Below are positions 15,683 to 23,400 of a DNA stretch of 64,000 nt, one piece after another. The stretch is from Pseudomonas flavescens (GTDB lineage: Bacteria > Pseudomonadota > Gammaproteobacteria > Pseudomonadales > Pseudomonadaceae), in the NCBI RefSeq assembly GCF_013408425.1, contig NZ_JACBYV010000001.1, forward strand, positions 4,526,001-4,590,000, in the 5' to 3' direction. Below the pieces are notes generated by a model. The model ran no database searches. It was not told the origin of the DNA and was given only the letters and a program-made list of their open reading frames with translations. Every line of letters starts with the position of its first letter. The first letter of the stretch is position 1. A program made the translations under genes and the position numbers.

Positions 15683-16690
15683 CTAGGGCTTTTTTGCCCA
15701 GCGCGGCGGTTCACGGCGCTCGCCGGCGGTCTGCGCTTGCGGCGGCAACTCGCCCCACTGACCGTCGCCCGCTGCGGGCTGCTCGCTCGGCGCCTGGGCG
15801 GGAGGGCTGGCCGGCGGCTGAGCCTGCTGCCGGGGGGGCGTGTGCCGACGGCGATGGCGCAGCACGAAGTCCTCGACCGCATCGATATCCACAGGCTCGA
15901 TACCCGTCGCGCCACGCCAGGCCGCATGGGCACGGGCCGCGCGCAACCAGACCAGATCGGCACGCAAGCCATCGACACCGGCCTCGAAACAGCGCTCGGT
16001 GATCGCCTCCAATGCCTGATCGTCGAGCGCGATGCGCGCTACCTGAGCACGGGCCTGTTCACACCGCTCGGCCAGTGCCGCCTGCTGCTCGGCCCACTGC
16101 GCGATGAACGCCTGGGGGTCGGCATCGAAAGCCAGGCGGCGGCGGACGATGTCGGCCCGCGCCCCCGGTTGCGGCTGGCCATCCAGCGCCAGGTTGAGGC
16201 CGAAGCGGTCGAGCAGTTGCGGGCGCAGCTCGCCCTCTTCGGCGTTCATGGTGCCGATCAGGATGAAGCGCGCACTGTGGCGATGAGAGATACCGTCACG
16301 CTCGACATGATTGACGCCACTGGCTGCCGCATCGAGCAGCAGATCGACCAGATGATCGGGCAGCAGATTGACTTCATCCACATACAGCACCCCACCATCG
16401 GCCTTGCTCAGCAGGCCGGGCGAGAACTGCGCGCGGCTTTCGCCAAGGGCAGCGTCCAGATCGAGCGTACCGACAATGCGCTCCTCGCTGGCACCCAGCG
16501 GCAGGGTAACGAACACGCCGCTCTCCAGCAGCTCGGCCAGGCCGCGGGCCAGGGTCGATTTGGCCATGCCCCGCGGGCCTTCGATCAGCACCCCGCCGAT
16601 TGCCGGATCGACCGCCACCAGGCACAGCGCCAACTTCAGCGAGTCGGCACCGACCACGGCGGCAAGGGGGAAGTGGGCGTTATCGGTCAT
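15683..16690 (-). CDS. ChlI/BchI-like AAA+ ATPase, probable cobaltochelatase subunit
   Basis: The protein has 335 residues. Walker A is GPRGMAKST (38-46), a variant usual in this chelatase-like group, and Walker B lies in [20 protein letters not shown]. Sensor and arginine-finger regions follow ([22 protein letters not shown]). The last 60 residues are Pro/Gln/Ala-rich. Magnesium chelatase I subunits power metal insertion by the large subunit. Here the genome neighbourhood (CobN at 19672) indicates cobalt insertion into hydrogenobyrinate diamide, replacing the CobS/CobT pair. It is transcribed with the VWA gene and divergently from the LOG gene at 16813. Confidence 0.85.
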
Positions 16691-16812: not shown

Positions 16813-17391
16813 ATGCGCCTGTGCATTTTCTGCGGTTCCAATGCGGGCACCAATCCCGTCTATATCGAGGCGGCTACCCGCCTCGGCCAAACGCTGGCCA
16901 AAGCCGGCATCGGCCTGGTGTATGGCGGCGCGTCCGTCGGTCTGATGGGCGCCGTGGCCGACGCGGCGCTGGAGGCCGGTGGCGAGGTGATCGGCGTGAT
17001 TCCGCGTTCGCTGTGGGAAAAGGAAGTGGCCCACACCGGCCTCGATGACCTGCGAATCGTCGACTCCATGCATCAGCGCAAAGCGCTGATGGCCGAATTG
17101 TCCGATGGTTTCATCGCCCTGCCGGGCGGCGTCGGCACCCTCGAAGAACTGTTCGAGGTATGGACCTGGGCACAACTGGGCCACCACCGCAAACCCTGCG
17201 CACTGCTCAACATCAATGGCTACTACGACCGCCTCAGCGCCTTCCTCGACCACATGGTCGACGAAGCCTTCGTCAAGGCGCCGCACCGCGAGATGCTGAT
17301 CGTCGAACAGGACATCGACGCACTGCTGAAGGCGATCAACGGCTATGAAGCGCCGCAGGTGGGCAAATGGATCGGCCGGCAGGAAACCTGA
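16813..17391 (+). CDS. LOG-family protein (cytokinin riboside 5'-monophosphate phosphoribohydrolase type)
   Basis: The protein has 192 residues. It begins [17 protein letters not shown] and carries [19 protein letters not shown] and the family signature [18 protein letters not shown], with the catalytic Arg/Glu region around SMHQRKALM. The family was long annotated as lysine decarboxylase but hydrolyses nucleoside 5'-monophosphates to base and ribose phosphate. The gene overlaps the following Nudix gene by one base in ATGA, so the two are co-translated. Both are nucleotide hydrolases, so a shared role in nucleotide clean-up is plausible. Confidence 0.88.
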
Positions 17392-17819
17392 TGAACGAGC
17401 AACCACGCCTGGGTTGTGGGGCGGCCATCGTGCAGGACGGGCGCCTGCTGCTGGTGCGCCGCCTGCGTGAGCCGGAGGCCGGCTGCTGGGGGTTGCCCGG
17501 CGGCAAGGTGGACTGGCTGGAGCCGGTCGAGCAGGCGGTACGCCGCGAGATCGAGGAAGAACTCGCCATCCGCCTGACGTCACTGAGGCTGCTCTGCGTG
17601 GTCGATCAGATCGATGCGCAGCGCGGCGAACACTGGCTGGCGCCGGTCTATCTGGCCGATACCTTCGAGGGTGACGTACGCAACGTAGAGCCCGACAAAC
17701 ACGACGACATCGGCTGGTTCGCACTGGACAGTCTGCCCGAGCCGCTGACCGTGGCGACCCGCCGTGCATTGCCCGCGCTCAGCGAACGGCGCTTGCAATC
17801 GACCACCGCGATGAATTAA
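17391..17819 (+). CDS. Nudix hydrolase
   Basis: The protein has 142 residues. The Nudix box runs from GGKVDWLEPVEQAVRREI into EEELAI, matching G-x5-E-x7-REUXEE; the usual Gly near the end is replaced by Ala. This family cleaves nucleoside diphosphate derivatives using metal bound by the REUXEE glutamates. GCGAAIVQDGRLLLVRRLRE is the usual first strand pair. Substrate cannot be read from sequence. Its start overlaps the LOG stop (ATGA). The aromatic leader region starts 28 bp downstream. Confidence 0.87.
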   Translation: MNEQPRLGCGAAIVQDGRLLLVRRLREPEAGCWGLPGGKVDWLEPVEQAVRREIEEELAIRLTSLRLLCVVDQIDAQRGEHWLAPVYLADTFEGDVRNVEPDKHDDIGWFALDSLPEPLTVATRRALPALSERRLQSTTAMN

Positions 17820-17846
17820 CGTCGAGCCCATTCAACGGAGCCGCAC

Positions 17847-17978
17847 ATGTCCACTTCCCCGATTCTGAACGCCACCCGCCTCGATGCAGCCTGCATCGTG
17901 ATCGCGCGTGCCCAGGCATCCGTGGTCGCAGCGGCCTCGTATTTTTATGGGTATTGGTTTAGCCACAGGCGCGCCTGA
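17847..17978 (+). CDS. Leader peptide 1 of the DAHP synthase gene (43 aa, aromatic-rich)
   Basis: A small ORF with SD CGGAG encodes 43 residues ending SYFYGYWFSHRRA. Six of seven consecutive residues (YFYGYWF) are aromatic: three Tyr, two Phe and one Trp. It ends 52 bp before a strong intrinsic terminator, and the next full gene is a DAHP synthase, the first enzyme of aromatic synthesis. This is the layout of ribosome-mediated attenuation: stalling at the aromatic codons when charged tRNAs are scarce would favour read-through. No protein function is expected for the peptide. The arrangement is seen in the sequence; the mechanism is inferred by analogy with trp and phe leaders. Confidence 0.8.
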   Translation: MSTSPILNATRLDAACIVIARAQASVVAAASYFYGYWFSHRRA

Positions 17979-18030
17979 TACCCCACAGGCGCCCTAGCAA
18001 CTCAGGGTCGCCACCAGACAGTTTCTCGAA

Positions 18031-18068
18031 ACCCCCGGTCGGCCTCCCGACCGGGGGTTTTGTTTTTT
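18031..18068 (+). terminator. Intrinsic terminator (attenuator) upstream of DAHP synthase
   Basis: A perfect 12-bp GC-rich stem (ACCCCCGGTCGG, loop CCTC, CCGACCGGGGGT) is followed by TTTGTTTTTT. It lies between leader peptide 1 and the DAHP synthase. GGTCG at 18006-18010 could pair with CGACC in the right arm (18048-18052) as a weak alternative. A simple terminator for the Nudix gene is the other reading, but the aromatic leader favours attenuation. Confidence 0.85.
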
Positions 18069-18101
18069 CCGGCACATCGATTGTTCACAGAGGATTTCAC
18101 C

Positions 18102-18206
18102 ATGACCGCCTACACCACCTACCAAAACGATTACCGCTACAGCTGGCGATTTACCGGCGCTCACGCCGCTCAACCACTCAATCGAACATCCCATCGAGCC
18201 AGATAG
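18102..18206 (+). CDS. Leader peptide 2 (34 aa, tyrosine-rich) between attenuator and DAHP synthase
   Basis: ATG 18102 is preceded by AGAGGA, a good SD. The peptide starts MTAYTTYQNDYRYSWRF: four Tyr, one Trp and one Phe in 17 residues, ending at TAG 18204. It lies after the attenuator and 43 bp before the DAHP synthase start. A GC-rich segment with partial self-complementarity (CGCGCGG/CCGCG) follows but no T-run, so any control here would be translational. It may be a second sensor of Tyr or Trp supply or simply a remnant. No homologue is known to me. Confidence 0.6.
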   Translation: MTAYTTYQNDYRYSWRFTGAHAAQPLNRTSHRAR

Positions 18207-18249
18207 TGCGCCGCGCGCGGTAACGTCCGCGCCGGCCGAGGAAACCACC

Positions 18250-19338
18250 ATGTCCGTAGCCGTCAATTCCCGCTCCACCGCCAAACCCGCCGATCTGCAT
18301 CTGGTCGACACCAAGACCCGCCGCCAGACCTCGCCGTTGCCCAGCGCCACCCAGTTGCGCGAAGAGCTGCCACTCTGCGCTGCGCTCGCGCGCCAGGTGC
18401 AGCAACAGCGCCACTCGATCCGCGCCATCCTCGATGGTCACGACCCACGTCTGCTGGTAGTGGTCGGCCCCTGCTCCCTGCACGACGACGCCGCCGTACT
18501 CGAATACGCCGAGCGCTTGGCCGCCCTCAGCCAACGAGTGGGTGATCGTCTGCTACTGGTGATGCGCGCCTACGTCGAAAAACCGCGCACCACGGTGGGC
18601 TGGAAGGGGCTGGTCTACGACCCGGCGCTGGATGGCAGCGGCGACATGGCCGAAGGCCTGCGCCGCTCGCGAAAATTGATGCTGCGCATGCTCGAGCTTG
18701 GCCTGCCACTGGCCAGCGAGATTCTGCAGCCGCTGGTGGCTGGGTACTTCGACGACCTGCTCGGCTGGGCGGCGATTGGCGCACGCACCAGTGAATCCCA
18801 GGTGCACCGCGAGCTGGTCAGCGGTCTGGAGATGCCGGTGGGCTTCAAGAACGGCACCGACGGCAGCCTCGGCATCGCCTGCGACGCCATGCGCTCGGCG
18901 GCCCATGCGCACCAGCACTTCGGCGTCGATGGCCACGGCCGGCCAGCGCTGGTGCAGACCCACGGCAACCCGGACACCCATCTGGTGCTGCGCGGCGGCC
19001 ACGGCGCGCCGAACTACGACGCTGCCAGCATCGCCATTGCCCGCGCCGAGCTGGAGCGCCAGGGCATCGCGCCACGGATCATGGTCGACTGCAGCCACGC
19101 CAACAGCGGCAAGAACCCGCTGCGCCAGCCCGACGTGCTGCGCAGCGTGCTCGACCAGCGCCTGGCCGGCGACGGCGCCCTGCGTGCGGTGATGATCGAA
19201 AGCCACCTGCTCGATGGCGCTCAGAGCCTCGGTGGCGAGCTGCGCTACGGTGTATCGATCACCGACGGCTGCCTCGGCTGGACCGGCACCGAGCGCATGC
19301 TGATCGACGCCGCCGTGCGCATGCGTCATCTGGTCTAA
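18250..19338 (+). CDS. Class I (AroFGH-type) 3-deoxy-7-phosphoheptulonate synthase
   Basis: The protein has 362 residues from ATG 18250 with SD GAGGAAA. Family motifs are VVVGPCSLHD, the PEP/E4P site VMRAYVEKPRTTVGWKGLV, GFKNGTDGS, and the metal-site region MVDCSHANSGK. The enzyme condenses phosphoenolpyruvate with erythrose 4-phosphate to begin the shikimate pathway, and is usually feedback-inhibited by Tyr, Phe or Trp; which one applies cannot be read here. In Pseudomonas a DAHP synthase lies in this position next to cobN. The upstream leaders indicate control by aromatic amino acid supply. Confidence 0.92.
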   Translation: MSVAVNSRSTAKPADLHLVDTKTRRQTSPLPSATQLREELPLCAALARQVQQQRHSIRAILDGHDPRLLVVVGPCSLHDDAAVLEYAERLAALSQRVGDRLLLVMRAYVEKPRTTVGWKGLVYDPALDGSGDMAEGLRRSRKLMLRMLELGLPLASEILQPLVAGYFDDLLGWAAIGARTSESQVHRELVSGLEMPVGFKNGTDGSLGIACDAMRSAAHAHQHFGVDGHGRPALVQTHGNPDTHLVLRGGHGAPNYDAASIAIARAELERQGIAPRIMVDCSHANSGKNPLRQPDVLRSVLDQRLAGDGALRAVMIESHLLDGAQSLGGELRYGVSITDGCLGWTGTERMLIDAAVRMRHLV

Positions 19339-19671
19339 CGCCAGGCGCAGCGATACCCAGGACACTCTCCCGGGTGTCGCTGCACTCGACCCGAGCGAAT
19401 GACGGCTCATCGATCAGGCCCTCTGAAACGCCCAGCCCTGCGTCGTCCACCCTTGCGATCGTGAAGCGGTGGACGGATCGGGCTGCGTAGGTGAAGCGTC
19501 GTCCACCCTACGCCTGAAGGCAGCTTCGAGGCGATAGCAGCCGTTCGTAGTCGGGGGCCAATTGGTGGGCTAAAGCCCACCCTACAGCCGCGCATCTAGC
19601 CGTAGGGTGGGCTTTAGCCCACCAAATCGAAGGTCCGCTTTCGCCACTTTTCAGCCAACGCGCCAAAAACC
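19339..19671. other. Repeat-bearing intergenic region between DAHP synthase and cobN
   Basis: These 333 bp separate convergent genes and contain no supported gene. Copies of a CCACCCT/AGGGTGG motif occur at about 19446-19512, followed by the strong hairpin at 19562-19625. The region probably serves as a bidirectional transcript end. Confidence 0.55.
19562..19625. repeat. 24-bp perfect inverted repeat of the GTAGGGTGG family
   Basis: The arms (19562-19585 and 19602-19625) match perfectly across a 16-bp loop. Each arm is itself nearly palindromic (GTGGGCTAAAGCCCAC), so several alternative folds exist. The element lies between the 3' ends of the DAHP synthase gene and cobN. Confidence 0.8.
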
Positions 19672-22600
19672 TCAGCGTTCTTCACTGTCGAGGAGCAGGT
19701 TTTCGAGGGCTTCGCGATAGTCGCCCGGCTCCTGCCACATGCCGCGCTGCTGGGCTTCGAGCAGACGTTCGATGATGTCCTGCAGGGCACCGGGGTTGTG
19801 CTGCTGGATGAAGTCGCGGGTGTCTCTGTCCATCAGGTAGGCGTCGGTGAGCAGGGCGTACTGATGGTCATCGACCAGCTCGCTGGTGGCGTCGAAGGCG
19901 AACAGGTAGTCGATGGTCGCGGCCAGCTCGAACGCACCTTTGTAGCCGTGGCGCTTCATGCCTTCGATCCACTTCGGGTTGGCCGCACGGGCGCGCACCA
20001 CGCGGGCCAGCTCCTGCTTGAGGGTGCGGATGCGCGGCGTATCGGGCTGGCTGTTGTCGCCGTGGTAGCTGGCTACCTTGGCCCCCCGCAGGGTTTCCAC
20101 CGCCGCCAGCATGCCGCCCTGAAACTGGTAATAGTCGTTGGAGTCGAGGATGTCGTGCTCGCGGTTGTCCTGGTTGTGCAGCACCGCCTGCAGATGCTCC
20201 AGGCGCTCGGCGAACTGGCCCCGTGCGGGCGTACCTTCGCTGCCTTTGCCGTAGGCGTAGCCGCCCCAGTTCAGGTACACCTCGGCAAGATCCGCGCGGC
20301 TCTCCCAGAGGCGCTCTTCGATGGCGTTCTGCACGCCAGCACCATAGGCGCCGGGCTTGGAGCCGAAGATCCGCCAGCCGGCCTGACGCCGTGCCTCGAG
20401 CTCGTCCAGCCCACCATCCTGCAGCGCCAGGGCTTCCTGCCAGACCCGCGCTGACAGCGGGTTCATGTCCGGCGACTCGTCCAGATCGGCGACCGCCTGC
20501 ACGGCGTCATCGAACAGGCGGATCAGGTTGGCGAAGGCATCACGGAAGAAGCCGGAGACCCTCAGGGTCACGTCGACACGCGGACGCCCGAGCTGCTCGA
20601 GGGGCAGCACGTCGAAGCGCTCGACCCGCTGGCTACCCGCCTGCCATACCGGGCGCACGCCCATCAGGGCCATGGCCTGGGCGATATCATCGCCACCGGT
20701 ACGCATGGTCGCGGTGCCCCACACCGACAGGCCGAGCTGGCGCAAGTGGTCGCCTTCGTCCTGCAGGTGACGTTCGAGCAGGCGGTCGGCTGCCTGCACA
20801 CCGAGGCGCCAGGCCGTGGGCGTAGGCAGGTTGCGCACGTCCACGGAATAGAAATTACGCCCGGTGGGTAGCACGTCGAGGCGCCCACGACTCGGCGCGC
20901 CGCTGGGGCCGGAGGGCACGAAGCGGCCATCGAGGGCATCGAGCAGGCCATGCATCTCGGCATCGCCACAGGCGTCCAGCAGCGGCGCGATATGGCTGCG
21001 CAGGGTGTGCAGCACTGCGTCACTGCTCGGGCCAGCGGACCGCTCACCCTCGATCAGCCGTAACCCCAGCAGCTCCAGGCGCTCCCGGGTATCGCCCAGA
21101 GTGCGCCAGGGCTCATCGCTCAGATCAGCCAAAATTTTCGGGCGCGGGCCCGTCCACGGCGCGGCCATGTCGCAATCGAGGGGGTCGAAGTCCAGCGCCA
21201 GGTCATGGGCCAGGGCACGCAGCAGGCTGGCATTGCCGCCCTGGCCATCGCCGCGAGGGATGCGCAGCAGGGCCAGCAGGGTGTCGCGGCGCAGCGTGCC
21301 GGCCGGTGATTCGCCGAACACATGCAGGCCATCGCGAATCTGCGACTCCTTGAGGTCGCACAGGTAGGCGTCGAGCTGCGGCAACCAGCTGGCGGGGTCG
21401 TCATTGAGCTGCAAGCCCAGCTCACGATCGAGGCTGGCCTCGCGGACCTTCTGCAGAATCTCGCCGCGCAGCTCACCGGCGCGGCGCAGATCGAGCTGGC
21501 TGGCGTCGTAGTACTCATCGGCCAGACGCTCCAGATCGCGCAGCGGACCGTAACTCTCGGCGCGCGTCAACGGCGGCATCAGGTGGTCGATGATCACCGC
21601 CTGTGTGCGGCGCTTGGCCTGGGCACCTTCGCCAGGATCGTTGACGATGAAGGGGTAGATGTTCGGCAGGGCACCGAGGATCGCCGTCGGCCAGCAGCTT
21701 TCGGACAGGCCGACGCTCTTGCCCGGCAGCCACTCCAGGTTGCCGTGCTTGCCGACATGGATCACCGCCTGGGCGGCGAACACCTGGCGCATCCAGCAAT
21801 AGAAGGCCAGGTAGCCATGCGGTGGCACAAGATCGGGGTCGTGATAAACCGCCGCCGCATCCACCTGATAACCCCGCGCCGGCTGGATGCCGACGAAGGT
21901 CAGGCCGAAGCGCAGGCCGGCGATCATCAGCCGACCCTCGCGGAACATCGGGTCGTTTTCCGGTGCGCCCCAGCGCTCCAGCACCGCCTGGCGATTGGCC
22001 TCGGGCAAGGCTGCGAAGAACGTCTGGTAGGCGTCCAGGGCCAGGCTTTGCGCACAGGGCCGCAGGTCGAGGTTGTCGAGATCGTTGGTCACGCCACCGA
22101 GCAACTGATGGATCAGCGCGGTGCCGCTGTCCGGCAAGGACTCTACCGGGTACCCCCGCTGCTGCAAGGCCTGGAGGATATTCAGGGCCGCCGCCGGGGT
22201 ATCCAGGCCGACGCCGTTGCCGATGCGCCCGTCGCGGGTTGGGTAGTTGGCCAGCACCAGGGCGACACGCTTGTGCGCAGCCGGCGTGCGCTGCAACTCG
22301 CACCAGCGCCGCGCCAGTTCGGCGACGAAATCCATGCCAGGCAAGTGCGCGCGGTAGCAGACCACATCGCTCTGGCTGCGATCGCTGCGCCAGGCCAGGC
22401 CCTTGAAACTGATCGGCCGGGTGATCAGTCGGCCGTCCAGCTCCGGCAGCGCGATATGCATGGCCAGGTCACGGGGGCCAAGGCCCTGAGCGTTACCTTG
22501 CCACTGCTCTTCGCTGTCCAGCGCGCAAAGCGCCTGCAGCACCGGCACATCACGGCGGAACGGCCGCGCCTGGGGCGATTCCGGGTTGGATTGTGCGAAA

Positions 22601-23400
22601 CCGGTGGTGTTGAGGATCACGCTCACGCCAGCTTCGTCCAGCCAATCCTCGACCTGCGCCAGGCAGGCAGCCTCCTTGAGGCTGGCCACGGCGATGGGCA
22701 ATGGATTGAGGCCCTGGGCCTGCAGCCGCTGGCAGAAGGTGTCGACGAAGGCGGTGTTGGCGGCCTGCACATGGGTGCGGTAGAACAGCAGCGCGGCAAC
22801 GGGCGCATCCGGCTGCCAGCTGGCACGCCAATCCTGCAGCGACGCATTGCCCAGGTGCGGGTGATACAGGCCGACCCGCGGTAGCGCTCGAGGAGGCTGG
22901 CTGCCGTAATGCCCGCCAAGATAGCGATCAGCGATGCAATGGAAAAACTGCCGCGCGTTATCCACACCACCCTGACGCAGGTATTGCCAGAGCCGCTCGG
23001 CGTCTTCGCCGGCGACATTGCCCAAGCCGGTCAATTCCGGATCGGGGCTGTCGTCGCCAGGCACGAGAATCAGCGTCTTGCCCTGCCCCGCCAGCTCCAC
23101 CAGCCGCTGGATGCCATAGCGCCAGTAACTGACACCGCCGTGCACGGAAATCAGAATGACCTTGGCATGCTGCAGGACCTTCTCGACGTAGAAGTCCACC
23201 GAGGCGTTGTTACTCAGCTGCGCCGGGCTGGCCAGGCGCAGGCTGGGGTAATCCTCGGGCAGATGACGGGCGACCTCGGCCAGCAGCGACAGGTGCGAAT
23301 CACCGGTGCACAGCACCACCAGCTCGGCGGGGGTCTGGCCGAGGTCGGCGATGCTGTCGGCCGGCAGCGACTGGCCGGGCTGGGTGCGCAGGAGGTGCAT
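19672..23400 (-). CDS. cobN: Cobaltochelatase large subunit CobN
   Basis: The protein has 1242 residues, the usual length for CobN. Motifs include ISVHGGVSYWRYG near residue 100, VLANYPTRDGRIGNGVGLDT, HVGKHGNLEWLPGKSVGLSE in the centre, and NWGGYAYGKGSEG with LDSNDYYQFQGG in the C-terminal third. CobN holds the tetrapyrrole and inserts Co2+ into hydrogenobyrinic acid a,c-diamide in aerobic cobalamin synthesis; the AAA and VWA proteins at 14973-16690 would supply the motor. It lies 72 bp downstream of cobW, with a REP-like palindrome between, and is probably co-transcribed with cobW from the minus-strand riboswitch promoter. Confidence 0.95.
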   Translation of the reverse strand: MHLLRTQPGQSLPADSIADLGQTPAELVVLCTGDSHLSLLAEVARHLPEDYPSLRLASPAQLSNNASVDFYVEKVLQHAKVILISVHGGVSYWRYGIQRLVELAGQGKTLILVPGDDSPDPELTGLGNVAGEDAERLWQYLRQGGVDNARQFFHCIADRYLGGHYGSQPPRALPRVGLYHPHLGNASLQDWRASWQPDAPVAALLFYRTHVQAANTAFVDTFCQRLQAQGLNPLPIAVASLKEAACLAQVEDWLDEAGVSVILNTTGFAQSNPESPQARPFRRDVPVLQALCALDSEEQWQGNAQGLGPRDLAMHIALPELDGRLITRPISFKGLAWRSDRSQSDVVCYRAHLPGMDFVAELARRWCELQRTPAAHKRVALVLANYPTRDGRIGNGVGLDTPAAALNILQALQQRGYPVESLPDSGTALIHQLLGGVTNDLDNLDLRPCAQSLALDAYQTFFAALPEANRQAVLERWGAPENDPMFREGRLMIAGLRFGLTFVGIQPARGYQVDAAAVYHDPDLVPPHGYLAFYCWMRQVFAAQAVIHVGKHGNLEWLPGKSVGLSESCWPTAILGALPNIYPFIVNDPGEGAQAKRRTQAVIIDHLMPPLTRAESYGPLRDLERLADEYYDASQLDLRRAGELRGEILQKVREASLDRELGLQLNDDPASWLPQLDAYLCDLKESQIRDGLHVFGESPAGTLRRDTLLALLRIPRGDGQGGNASLLRALAHDLALDFDPLDCDMAAPWTGPRPKILADLSDEPWRTLGDTRERLELLGLRLIEGERSAGPSSDAVLHTLRSHIAPLLDACGDAEMHGLLDALDGRFVPSGPSGAPSRGRLDVLPTGRNFYSVDVRNLPTPTAWRLGVQAADRLLERHLQDEGDHLRQLGLSVWGTATMRTGGDDIAQAMALMGVRPVWQAGSQRVERFDVLPLEQLGRPRVDVTLRVSGFFRDAFANLIRLFDDAVQAVADLDESPDMNPLSARVWQEALALQDGGLDELEARRQAGWRIFGSKPGAYGAGVQNAIEERLWESRADLAEVYLNWGGYAYGKGSEGTPARGQFAERLEHLQAVLHNQDNREHDILDSNDYYQFQGGMLAAVETLRGAKVASYHGDNSQPDTPRIRTLKQELARVVRARAANPKWIEGMKRHGYKGAFELAATIDYLFAFDATSELVDDHQYALLTDAYLMDRDTRDFIQQHNPGALQDIIERLLEAQQRGMWQEPGDYREALENLLLDSEER

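Follow-up and report, generated by a model that had tools for sequence, protein, structure and literature searches.

What controls a gene whose product opens the aromatic pathway when that gene is preceded by a short open reading frame rich in aromatic codons and by a strong terminator? This question is raised by a stretch of 64,000 nucleotides from Pseudomonas flavescens, called the window here, in which all features of the leader lie on the plus strand. The 43-codon leader ORF 1 (uORF1, 17847-17978, from the ORF list) is preceded by a Shine-Dalgarno-like CGGAG at 17836-17840, and a GGAG-type site lies 5′ of its ATG in most relatives. An earlier note on this DNA had reported such an ORF ahead of a gene for the first enzyme of the aromatic pathway, and both are present. 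The next large gene on the leader's strand (aroF, 18250-19338, 362 aa) matches PF00793 with 242 bits and TIGR00034 with 425 bits in family profile searches, i.e. it encodes a type I DAHP synthase, and has a Shine-Dalgarno sequence GAGG at 18238-18241. Some details needed correction. The aromatic cluster YFYGYWF is encoded at 17940-17960 (TAT TTT TAT GGG TAT TGG TTT), but uORF1 does not literally end in it because five further codons (SHRRA) come after. The hairpin indeed belongs to a strong terminator, but its stem comprises 13 rather than 12 bp and begins 51 rather than 52 bases past the stop codon. A second aromatic-rich leader ORF, uORF2 (18102-18206), was overlooked. On the minus strand the region is flanked by a putative cobN-like gene (19672-23400) and a putative magnesium-chelatase-like ATPase gene (15683-16690). 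No sigma-70-like promoter was found at 17600-18260 of the window.

In the histidine operon leader, six RNA segments pair either as A:B, C:D and E:F or as B:C and D:E, and the product codons lie in segment A. The E. coli trp and pheA leaders have four segments and respond to one amino acid each, ribosome stalling on the product codons controlling an intrinsic terminator. We propose, with a probability of roughly 0.85, that uORF1 and the RNA down to the terminator form a six-segment, histidine-operon-like transcription attenuator through which charged Tyr, Phe and Trp tRNA would set DAHP synthase expression. The stalling-controlled terminator would be common to all of these leaders, and the six-segment pairing scheme with product codons in segment A would be shared with the histidine leader (RF00514). 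In contrast to the latter, the present leader carries aromatic codons and precedes a DAHP synthase gene, and its His_leader score in the window (17000-19500) is only 24 bits, below the gathering cut-off of 49. Unlike the trp and pheA leaders, it combines Tyr, Phe and Trp codons and precedes the gene for the entry step of the common pathway.

The RNA of the window has already been described, though not as a leader, since cmscan finds the Rfam family P15 (RF00627) at 17936-18057 with 105.7 bits, above the gathering cut-off of 70. This match covers neither the uORF1 start nor uORF2 because it begins within uORF1 and stops in the terminator; P15 and our own covariance model R1 also match the other strand, over the palindromic terminator. 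Rfam types P15 as a gene, a Pseudomonas sRNA, and not as a leader, and it has been counted among the sRNAs detected by Livny et al. (PMC2375449). Premature 3′ ends have been mapped in P. aeruginosa (PMC8297930), and the name P15 is absent from the main text of that report. In the open-licence literature searched we found no description of P15 as the leader of a DAHP synthase gene. The statement of the earlier note that no description was known nevertheless finds no support, in view of the P15 entry and of a Corynebacterium glutamicum DAHP synthase gene preceded by a putative leader that contains Phe-Tyr-Phe (PMC4046766). We think that P15 is a known RNA under the wrong label, namely an attenuator of the histidine type that would respond to Tyr, Phe and Trp alike. 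P15 has also been said to share synteny with a Listeria TPP riboswitch and perhaps to be a riboswitch itself (PMC2527527). A metabolite riboswitch that needs no translation is very improbable: within 17000-19500 Rfam gave nine matches at E up to 5, none of them to the TPP riboswitch or another riboswitch family, and the conserved start, ribosome site and aromatic codons favour translation.

The distribution of the RNA follows the gene. P15 was above its cut-off in 55 of the 95 genomes first searched, all of them within the 59 genomes of the genus (the window's genome included). In an overlapping set of 398 genus genomes, 361 had a match and 360 exceeded the cut-off. A DAHP synthase gene lies 3′ of the leader in all 56 loci of the first comparison, i.e. 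55 from the genus and L055, a weak P15 match from another family. Of the 37 genus genomes without P15, 20 were checked. In 19 of these the DAHP synthase found is just a paralog with 49-54% identity, which in G159 is split into two pieces; in the twentieth, G242, a 66% ortholog begins at base 2 of its contig. Our own RNA model gave matches in seven of the 20 genomes, all at 25-32 bits, to which we give no weight because this range is mostly background. The window's genome contains one other DAHP synthase-like gene (L106), in whose ORF list no aromatic leader ORF was seen by eye, and a third PF00793 match (L107). At an E-value of up to 0.001, R1 had matches in 92 of the 390 genomes searched in the order, a good many of which were background, and its score was not decisive: L153 is false at 38.7 bits, while L154 at 37.2 and L156 at 31.1 bits are real. 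Among 38 more distant loci inspected (one from the same genus, five from sister genera, the rest from families f43, f36 and f16), DAHP synthase is downstream in 37, the false L153 being the exception.

This linkage bears on two other readings. That the hairpin just ends the message of an upstream Nudix gene and the ORF is due to chance was the refuting alternative named in the earlier note, and in the window the Nudix ORF does stop 27 bases 5′ of uORF1. The idea deserves hardly any credence: within upstream flanks of 1500-2000 bases a Nudix gene is 5′ of the leader in one of the 56 loci, the window alone, whereas leader and DAHP synthase are together in 56/56. A trans-acting small RNA with an incidental or secondary aromatic ORF would agree with the Rfam entry and with the sRNA count cited above. 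It is improbable. Termination within a leader produces just such a short RNA, the linkage of the ORF and its aromatic codons to DAHP synthase is kept from locus to locus, and absence of the RNA goes with absence of the gene in the genomes examined. P15 may in addition act in trans.

The control codons of uORF1 are conserved, as the earlier note had suggested checking. The first sets comprised 86 loci (the window, 54 genus loci and L055, then 30 more divergent genus loci, 29 of them readable), and Tyr-Trp-Phe/Tyr codons were found in 85; the remaining stretch, L074, is cut at a contig end and unreadable. At the nucleotide level, TAT TGG TTT AGC hardly varies. The reading frame of uORF1 gives a pN/pS of 0.87-0.94 over the variable part, the two alternative frames 1.10-1.25 and 0.81-0.91. 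With so little residue selection in frame, and other frames alike, the variable part alone is no proof that uORF1 is read. In seven loci (L022, L030, L033, L040, L044, L048 and L049) uORF1 stops three codons early and the RNA is kept; an early stop likewise occurs in five of the 30 more divergent loci. Since the tail can be cut with the RNA kept, and residue selection is low, this points to uORF1 acting through its codons and RNA and not as an arrest peptide.

Folding and comparison of the Pseudomonas leaders outline the six segments. Segment A (GGGUAUUGG, 17949-17957) contains the Gly-Tyr-Trp codons and pairs in the termination fold with 17974-17983 (89.3% of cells paired). Segment B (17968-17983), assigned by folding, spans the uORF1 tail codons, the stop and the next bases. 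Segment C (17986-17994) has B as its partner in antitermination or D in termination, according to folding and the Halomonadaceae pairing described below. Segment D (GGGUCGCC, 18005-18012) would pair with C or, with weak support, with the terminator 5′ arm. Arms E and F form the 13-bp stem (18030-18059) of the intrinsic terminator, which extends with its U tract over 18030-18068. The stem has a free energy of −27 kcal/mol (z −5.1), a stability reached by none of 200 shuffled sequences, and it shows two-sided changes among relatives.

Covariation and switch folding were evaluated on 25 dereplicated rows of 85; one comparison omitted L027, L051 and L055, and six rows of the window's clade were treated separately. 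The termination fold A:B, C:D and E:F is paired in 94.7% of cells, with five pairs changed on both sides. On four measures none of 500 shuffles did as well, and on the fifth one did; slid versions of the fold reach at most 56.3% paired. The antitermination fold B:C and D:E showed no covariation at fixed Pseudomonas columns (184/500 shuffles as high), and its register shifts among the Pseudomonas rows. Folded singly, the B:C hairpin is stable in all 25 rows, including those with a weak helix A:B (L055, L082-L085); its free energy is −11.3 to −19.3 kcal/mol and its z score −2.1 to −5.2.

Simulated ribosomes shift the predicted pairing in the direction expected of an attenuator. The mean probability that the terminator 5′ arm is paired upstream is 0.54 with a ribosome stalled on the control codons and 0.19 with a ribosome at the stop (25 rows). 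The mean difference of 0.35 compares with 0.01 in shuffled controls, and 24 of the 25 rows lie above their control mean. In the window itself the contrast is small (0.50 versus 0.37; control 0.02 ± 0.13), L069 shows no difference, and several others stay within about one to two control standard deviations. A second folding series with different ribosome positions covered 84 of the 86 loci, L026 and L074 being lost by the search pattern. Here, the arm was paired upstream with a probability above 0.3 in 84/84 loci with the A site on Tyr, in 79/84 on Trp and in 30/84 at the stop. With no ribosome it was still so paired in 69/84, its partners then being for the most part bases some 40 positions 5′ of the control codons. 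Folding thus supports the contrast between stall and stop, and not termination in the absence of translation. Direct pairing of the control codons with the terminator arm was considered and dropped, as by eye and by folding the stalled states mainly use other upstream segments.

Evidence of covariation in the B:C helix came from a second family. A search pattern derived from the uORF1 of family f36 retrieved 105 loci, 97 of them Halomonadaceae by name and eight chance matches without leader or gene. Of the former, 72 were examined fully and 25 only for the presence of leader, uORF2 and gene. Family f36 corresponds to the Halomonadaceae, contigs of G685 and G629 having the peptides of named Litchfieldella and Chromohalobacter contigs; this set therefore overlaps the distant loci above, some contigs being the same (e.g. 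L139 = L186 and L140 = L178). A DAHP synthase gene is downstream in 64/72 and 25/25 of these loci, respectively. Removal of near-identical or cut leaders left 43 of 72 for alignment. Segments B (GGYGUGCC) and C (mostly GGCACRCC) sit on either side of the uORF1 stop and are paired in 341 of 341 cells; none of 500 shuffles matched the paired cells, the changed cells or the score. One column pair covaries (U-A in 24, C-G in 18 and U-G in one of the 43 leaders), and it is the only one of the helix to do so, 410/500 shuffles doing as well when the number of changed pairs is the measure. Segment C can also pair with D (98.0% of cells, no two-sided change). The conservation of mutually exclusive hairpins, a check proposed in the earlier note, is accordingly borne out for B:C versus C:D by the single covarying pair in Halomonadaceae, but not by fixed-column covariation in Pseudomonas. 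Pairing of D with the terminator arm E is the weakest step of the switch: it is seen in folding, weakly in the window, and is paired in 87.1% of Halomonadaceae cells, and it covaries in neither group. At three Halomonadaceae loci no Rfam family attained its cut-off.

The leader hence unites a short ORF with a ribosome site, a cluster of product codons, a terminator ahead of the gene and the alternative helices B:C and C:D. From these sequences, their conservation and covariation and the linkage to the gene we infer how stalling and read-through might operate. When aromatic amino acids are plentiful, the ribosome would reach the uORF1 stop and cover B; with C then paired to D, the E:F terminator would fold and transcription would stop early, releasing P15 as a short RNA. 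Under a shortage of charged aromatic tRNA, the ribosome would stall on YFYGYWF and cover A, B:C would pair, D would be free to hold the terminator 5′ arm and RNA polymerase would read through. The earlier suggestion of attenuation by a mixed Tyr/Phe/Trp leader appears well supported at the sequence level, given the conservation of codons, terminator and exclusive helices and the linkage of the leader to the gene.

What is the second ORF for? In the window, uORF2 has 34 codons (MTAYTTYQNDYRYSWRFTGAHAAQPLNRTSHRAR) and lies 3′ of the terminator; the ORF list gives it an upstream TTG start, and the ATG at 18102 has its own Shine-Dalgarno sequence GAGGA at 18090-18094, with a similar site in most relatives. 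The Trp-Arg-Phe codons occupy 18144-18153 (TGG CGA TTT A). A counterpart of uORF2 with Trp-Arg-Phe stands between terminator and DAHP synthase in 56/56 and 29/30 loci of the first sets, and these codons begin TGGCGATTTA in 85/85 first-set loci and in all 25 more distant loci that have them; the ten bases are invariant in alignments of 62 and 71 rows. Among the 38 distant loci, 25 have a second ORF with Trp-Arg-Phe, five have one without it, and none was found in seven (L125-L127, L132, L135, L137 and L152). In Halomonadaceae the ten bases occur in 68/72 and 24/25 loci, i.e. 92 of 97. Three of the misses (L159, L172 and L183) lie at the end of the available stretch, and L235 and L253 truly lack uORF2, their DAHP synthase gene being at about +136. 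A layout of uORF1, terminator and DAHP synthase with no second leader ORF seen is shared by L125-L127, L132, L135 and L137 (f43) and by L235 and L253 (Vreelandella).

The N-terminal part of uORF2 looks translated in frame: in 38 sequences its pN/pS is 0.47, as against 1.19 and 0.74 when the other frames are read. The C-terminal part does not look so (0.89 versus 0.97 and 0.64). A protein search with the uORF2 peptide of a relative returned 86 matches, the named ones all hypothetical or uncharacterised, and uORF2 has no Pfam or NCBIfam match up to E 1. At the ends of their aromatic runs, uORF1 (17955-17963) and uORF2 (18144-18155) share UGG and UUU codons and, in most relatives, also AGC; the two may stem from one duplicated leader. 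Irregular layouts were seen in a few loci. L051 and L072 have about 135-138 extra bases between terminator and uORF2, with uORF2 and its ribosome site intact, and in L027 a shift of frame close to the end of uORF2 carries it on to 83 codons, reaching into the DAHP synthase gene.

The layouts downstream of uORF2 suggest translational coupling. When the nearest ATG is taken as the DAHP synthase start, it overlaps the uORF2 stop (ATGA) in 16 of 68 Halomonadaceae loci, follows 2-9 bases past it in 47 and lies further away in five. In Pseudomonas, a hairpin separates the uORF2 stop from the ribosome site of DAHP synthase (18207-18237 in the window, z −2.3); among 27 dereplicated loci, 19 gave z below −1.5. 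In L082-L085 the ribosome site seems to lie in the loop of a short hairpin and not behind one (by eye; L082 and L084 folded). We infer from the two layouts, the overlap and the hairpin, that uORF2 would couple translation of the enzyme to the leader. That it does nothing else, ribosomes ending uORF2 reinitiating at DAHP synthase while a downstream RNA fold and the CGA codon set their flow, has slightly less than an even chance. Both layouts agree with it, yet such coupling would cut expression under severe aromatic starvation, opposing the logic of uORF1 in its sign, and it leaves the aromatic nature of the codons unexplained.

The fold in question follows the Trp-Arg-Phe codons, where the bases of the main Pseudomonas clade and the Halomonadaceae align gap-free over 66 columns. 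The alignment of 71 rows comprised 57 distinct regular sequences from 68 Halomonadaceae loci and 14 chosen from Pseudomonas. Two crossing helices (columns 18-25:41-48 and 34-39:58-63, with loops of 8, 1 and 9) are paired in 97.4% of cells, and 27 cells are changed on both sides compared with 9.1 ± 2.0 after shuffling; none of 500 shuffles did as well on any of five measures. Column pair 18:48 alone shows five pair types. Sliding the knot by +3 gives 31 changed cells, but merely 47.7% are paired. The second helix taken by itself is weaker (5/500 shuffles for changed cells). In an earlier, mostly Pseudomonas set of 62 rows, drawn from 64 distinct rows with L007 and L015 excluded, there was support for the first helix but no two-sided change in the second. 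Two crossing helices with covariation, as in an H-type pseudoknot, are thus found in the uORF2 of relatives, where they might form together as a pseudoknot or exclude one another. The knot is absent from the shorter uORF2 of the window's clade and of L115-L119.

Could uORF2 be a second attenuator, acting on translation? A ribosome held on Trp-Arg-Phe would leave the pseudoknot folded and so lock its ACCUCC region away from the ribosome site of DAHP synthase. The invariant TGGCGATTTA and the covarying knot fit this idea. Folding of loci with a clear ribosome site (58 of 68 Halomonadaceae and 67 Pseudomonas) gave a divided answer: in Halomonadaceae the site pairs with the ACCUCC region with a mean probability of 0.27, and a locked knot makes it accessible in 25 and closes it in four of the 58, whereas in Pseudomonas the mean probability is 0.02 and locking frees five and closes 14 of the 67. 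Moreover, the position of the ribosome along uORF2 hardly alters the predicted access to the site (0.39 to 0.30, 83 loci), and the window's clade has no knot. Such an attenuator is rather less likely than coupling alone. As simple devices, an access switch set by ribosome position had no clear effect, and anti-Shine-Dalgarno masking found some support in Halomonadaceae and none in Pseudomonas. For frameshifting at the knot, no slippery site was seen by eye and the distance from the uORF2 stop to the ATG keeps no single frame. Tentatively, with odds a little poorer than those given to coupling alone, we consider aromatic control in two stages: the histidine-type attenuator of uORF1, followed by a checkpoint at the level of translation in uORF2, in which Trp-Arg-Phe abuts a ribosome-sensed pseudoknot that sets enzyme translation. 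This arrangement may predate the split between Pseudomonadaceae and Halomonadaceae.

Leaders of a similar kind have been proposed elsewhere. Corynebacterium glutamicum aroF likewise has a putative leader peptide, with Phe-Tyr-Phe, before DAHP synthase (PMC4046766). It belongs to another phylum, and neither a second ORF nor a Trp codon is described in the available part of that report. A mixed aromatic DAHP synthase leader having been proposed there, the kind is known and the variant presented here is new. Two tandem leader peptides before one gene also occur at ermB (PMC8274638), which differs in that the control is translational, is induced by an antibiotic and concerns a resistance gene.

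In summary, a testable function is offered for an RNA that Rfam lists among the small RNAs. To the inventory of this locus we add a second leader ORF, listed in databases as a hypothetical protein where it is named at all, together with an RNA fold conserved in many relatives. If our reading of the first leader is true, P15 levels in RNA studies might gauge aromatic supply or translation and not a trans-acting regulator. The finding suggests a way in which most of the genus Pseudomonas, and a second family, could monitor Tyr, Phe and Trp together where the pathway begins.
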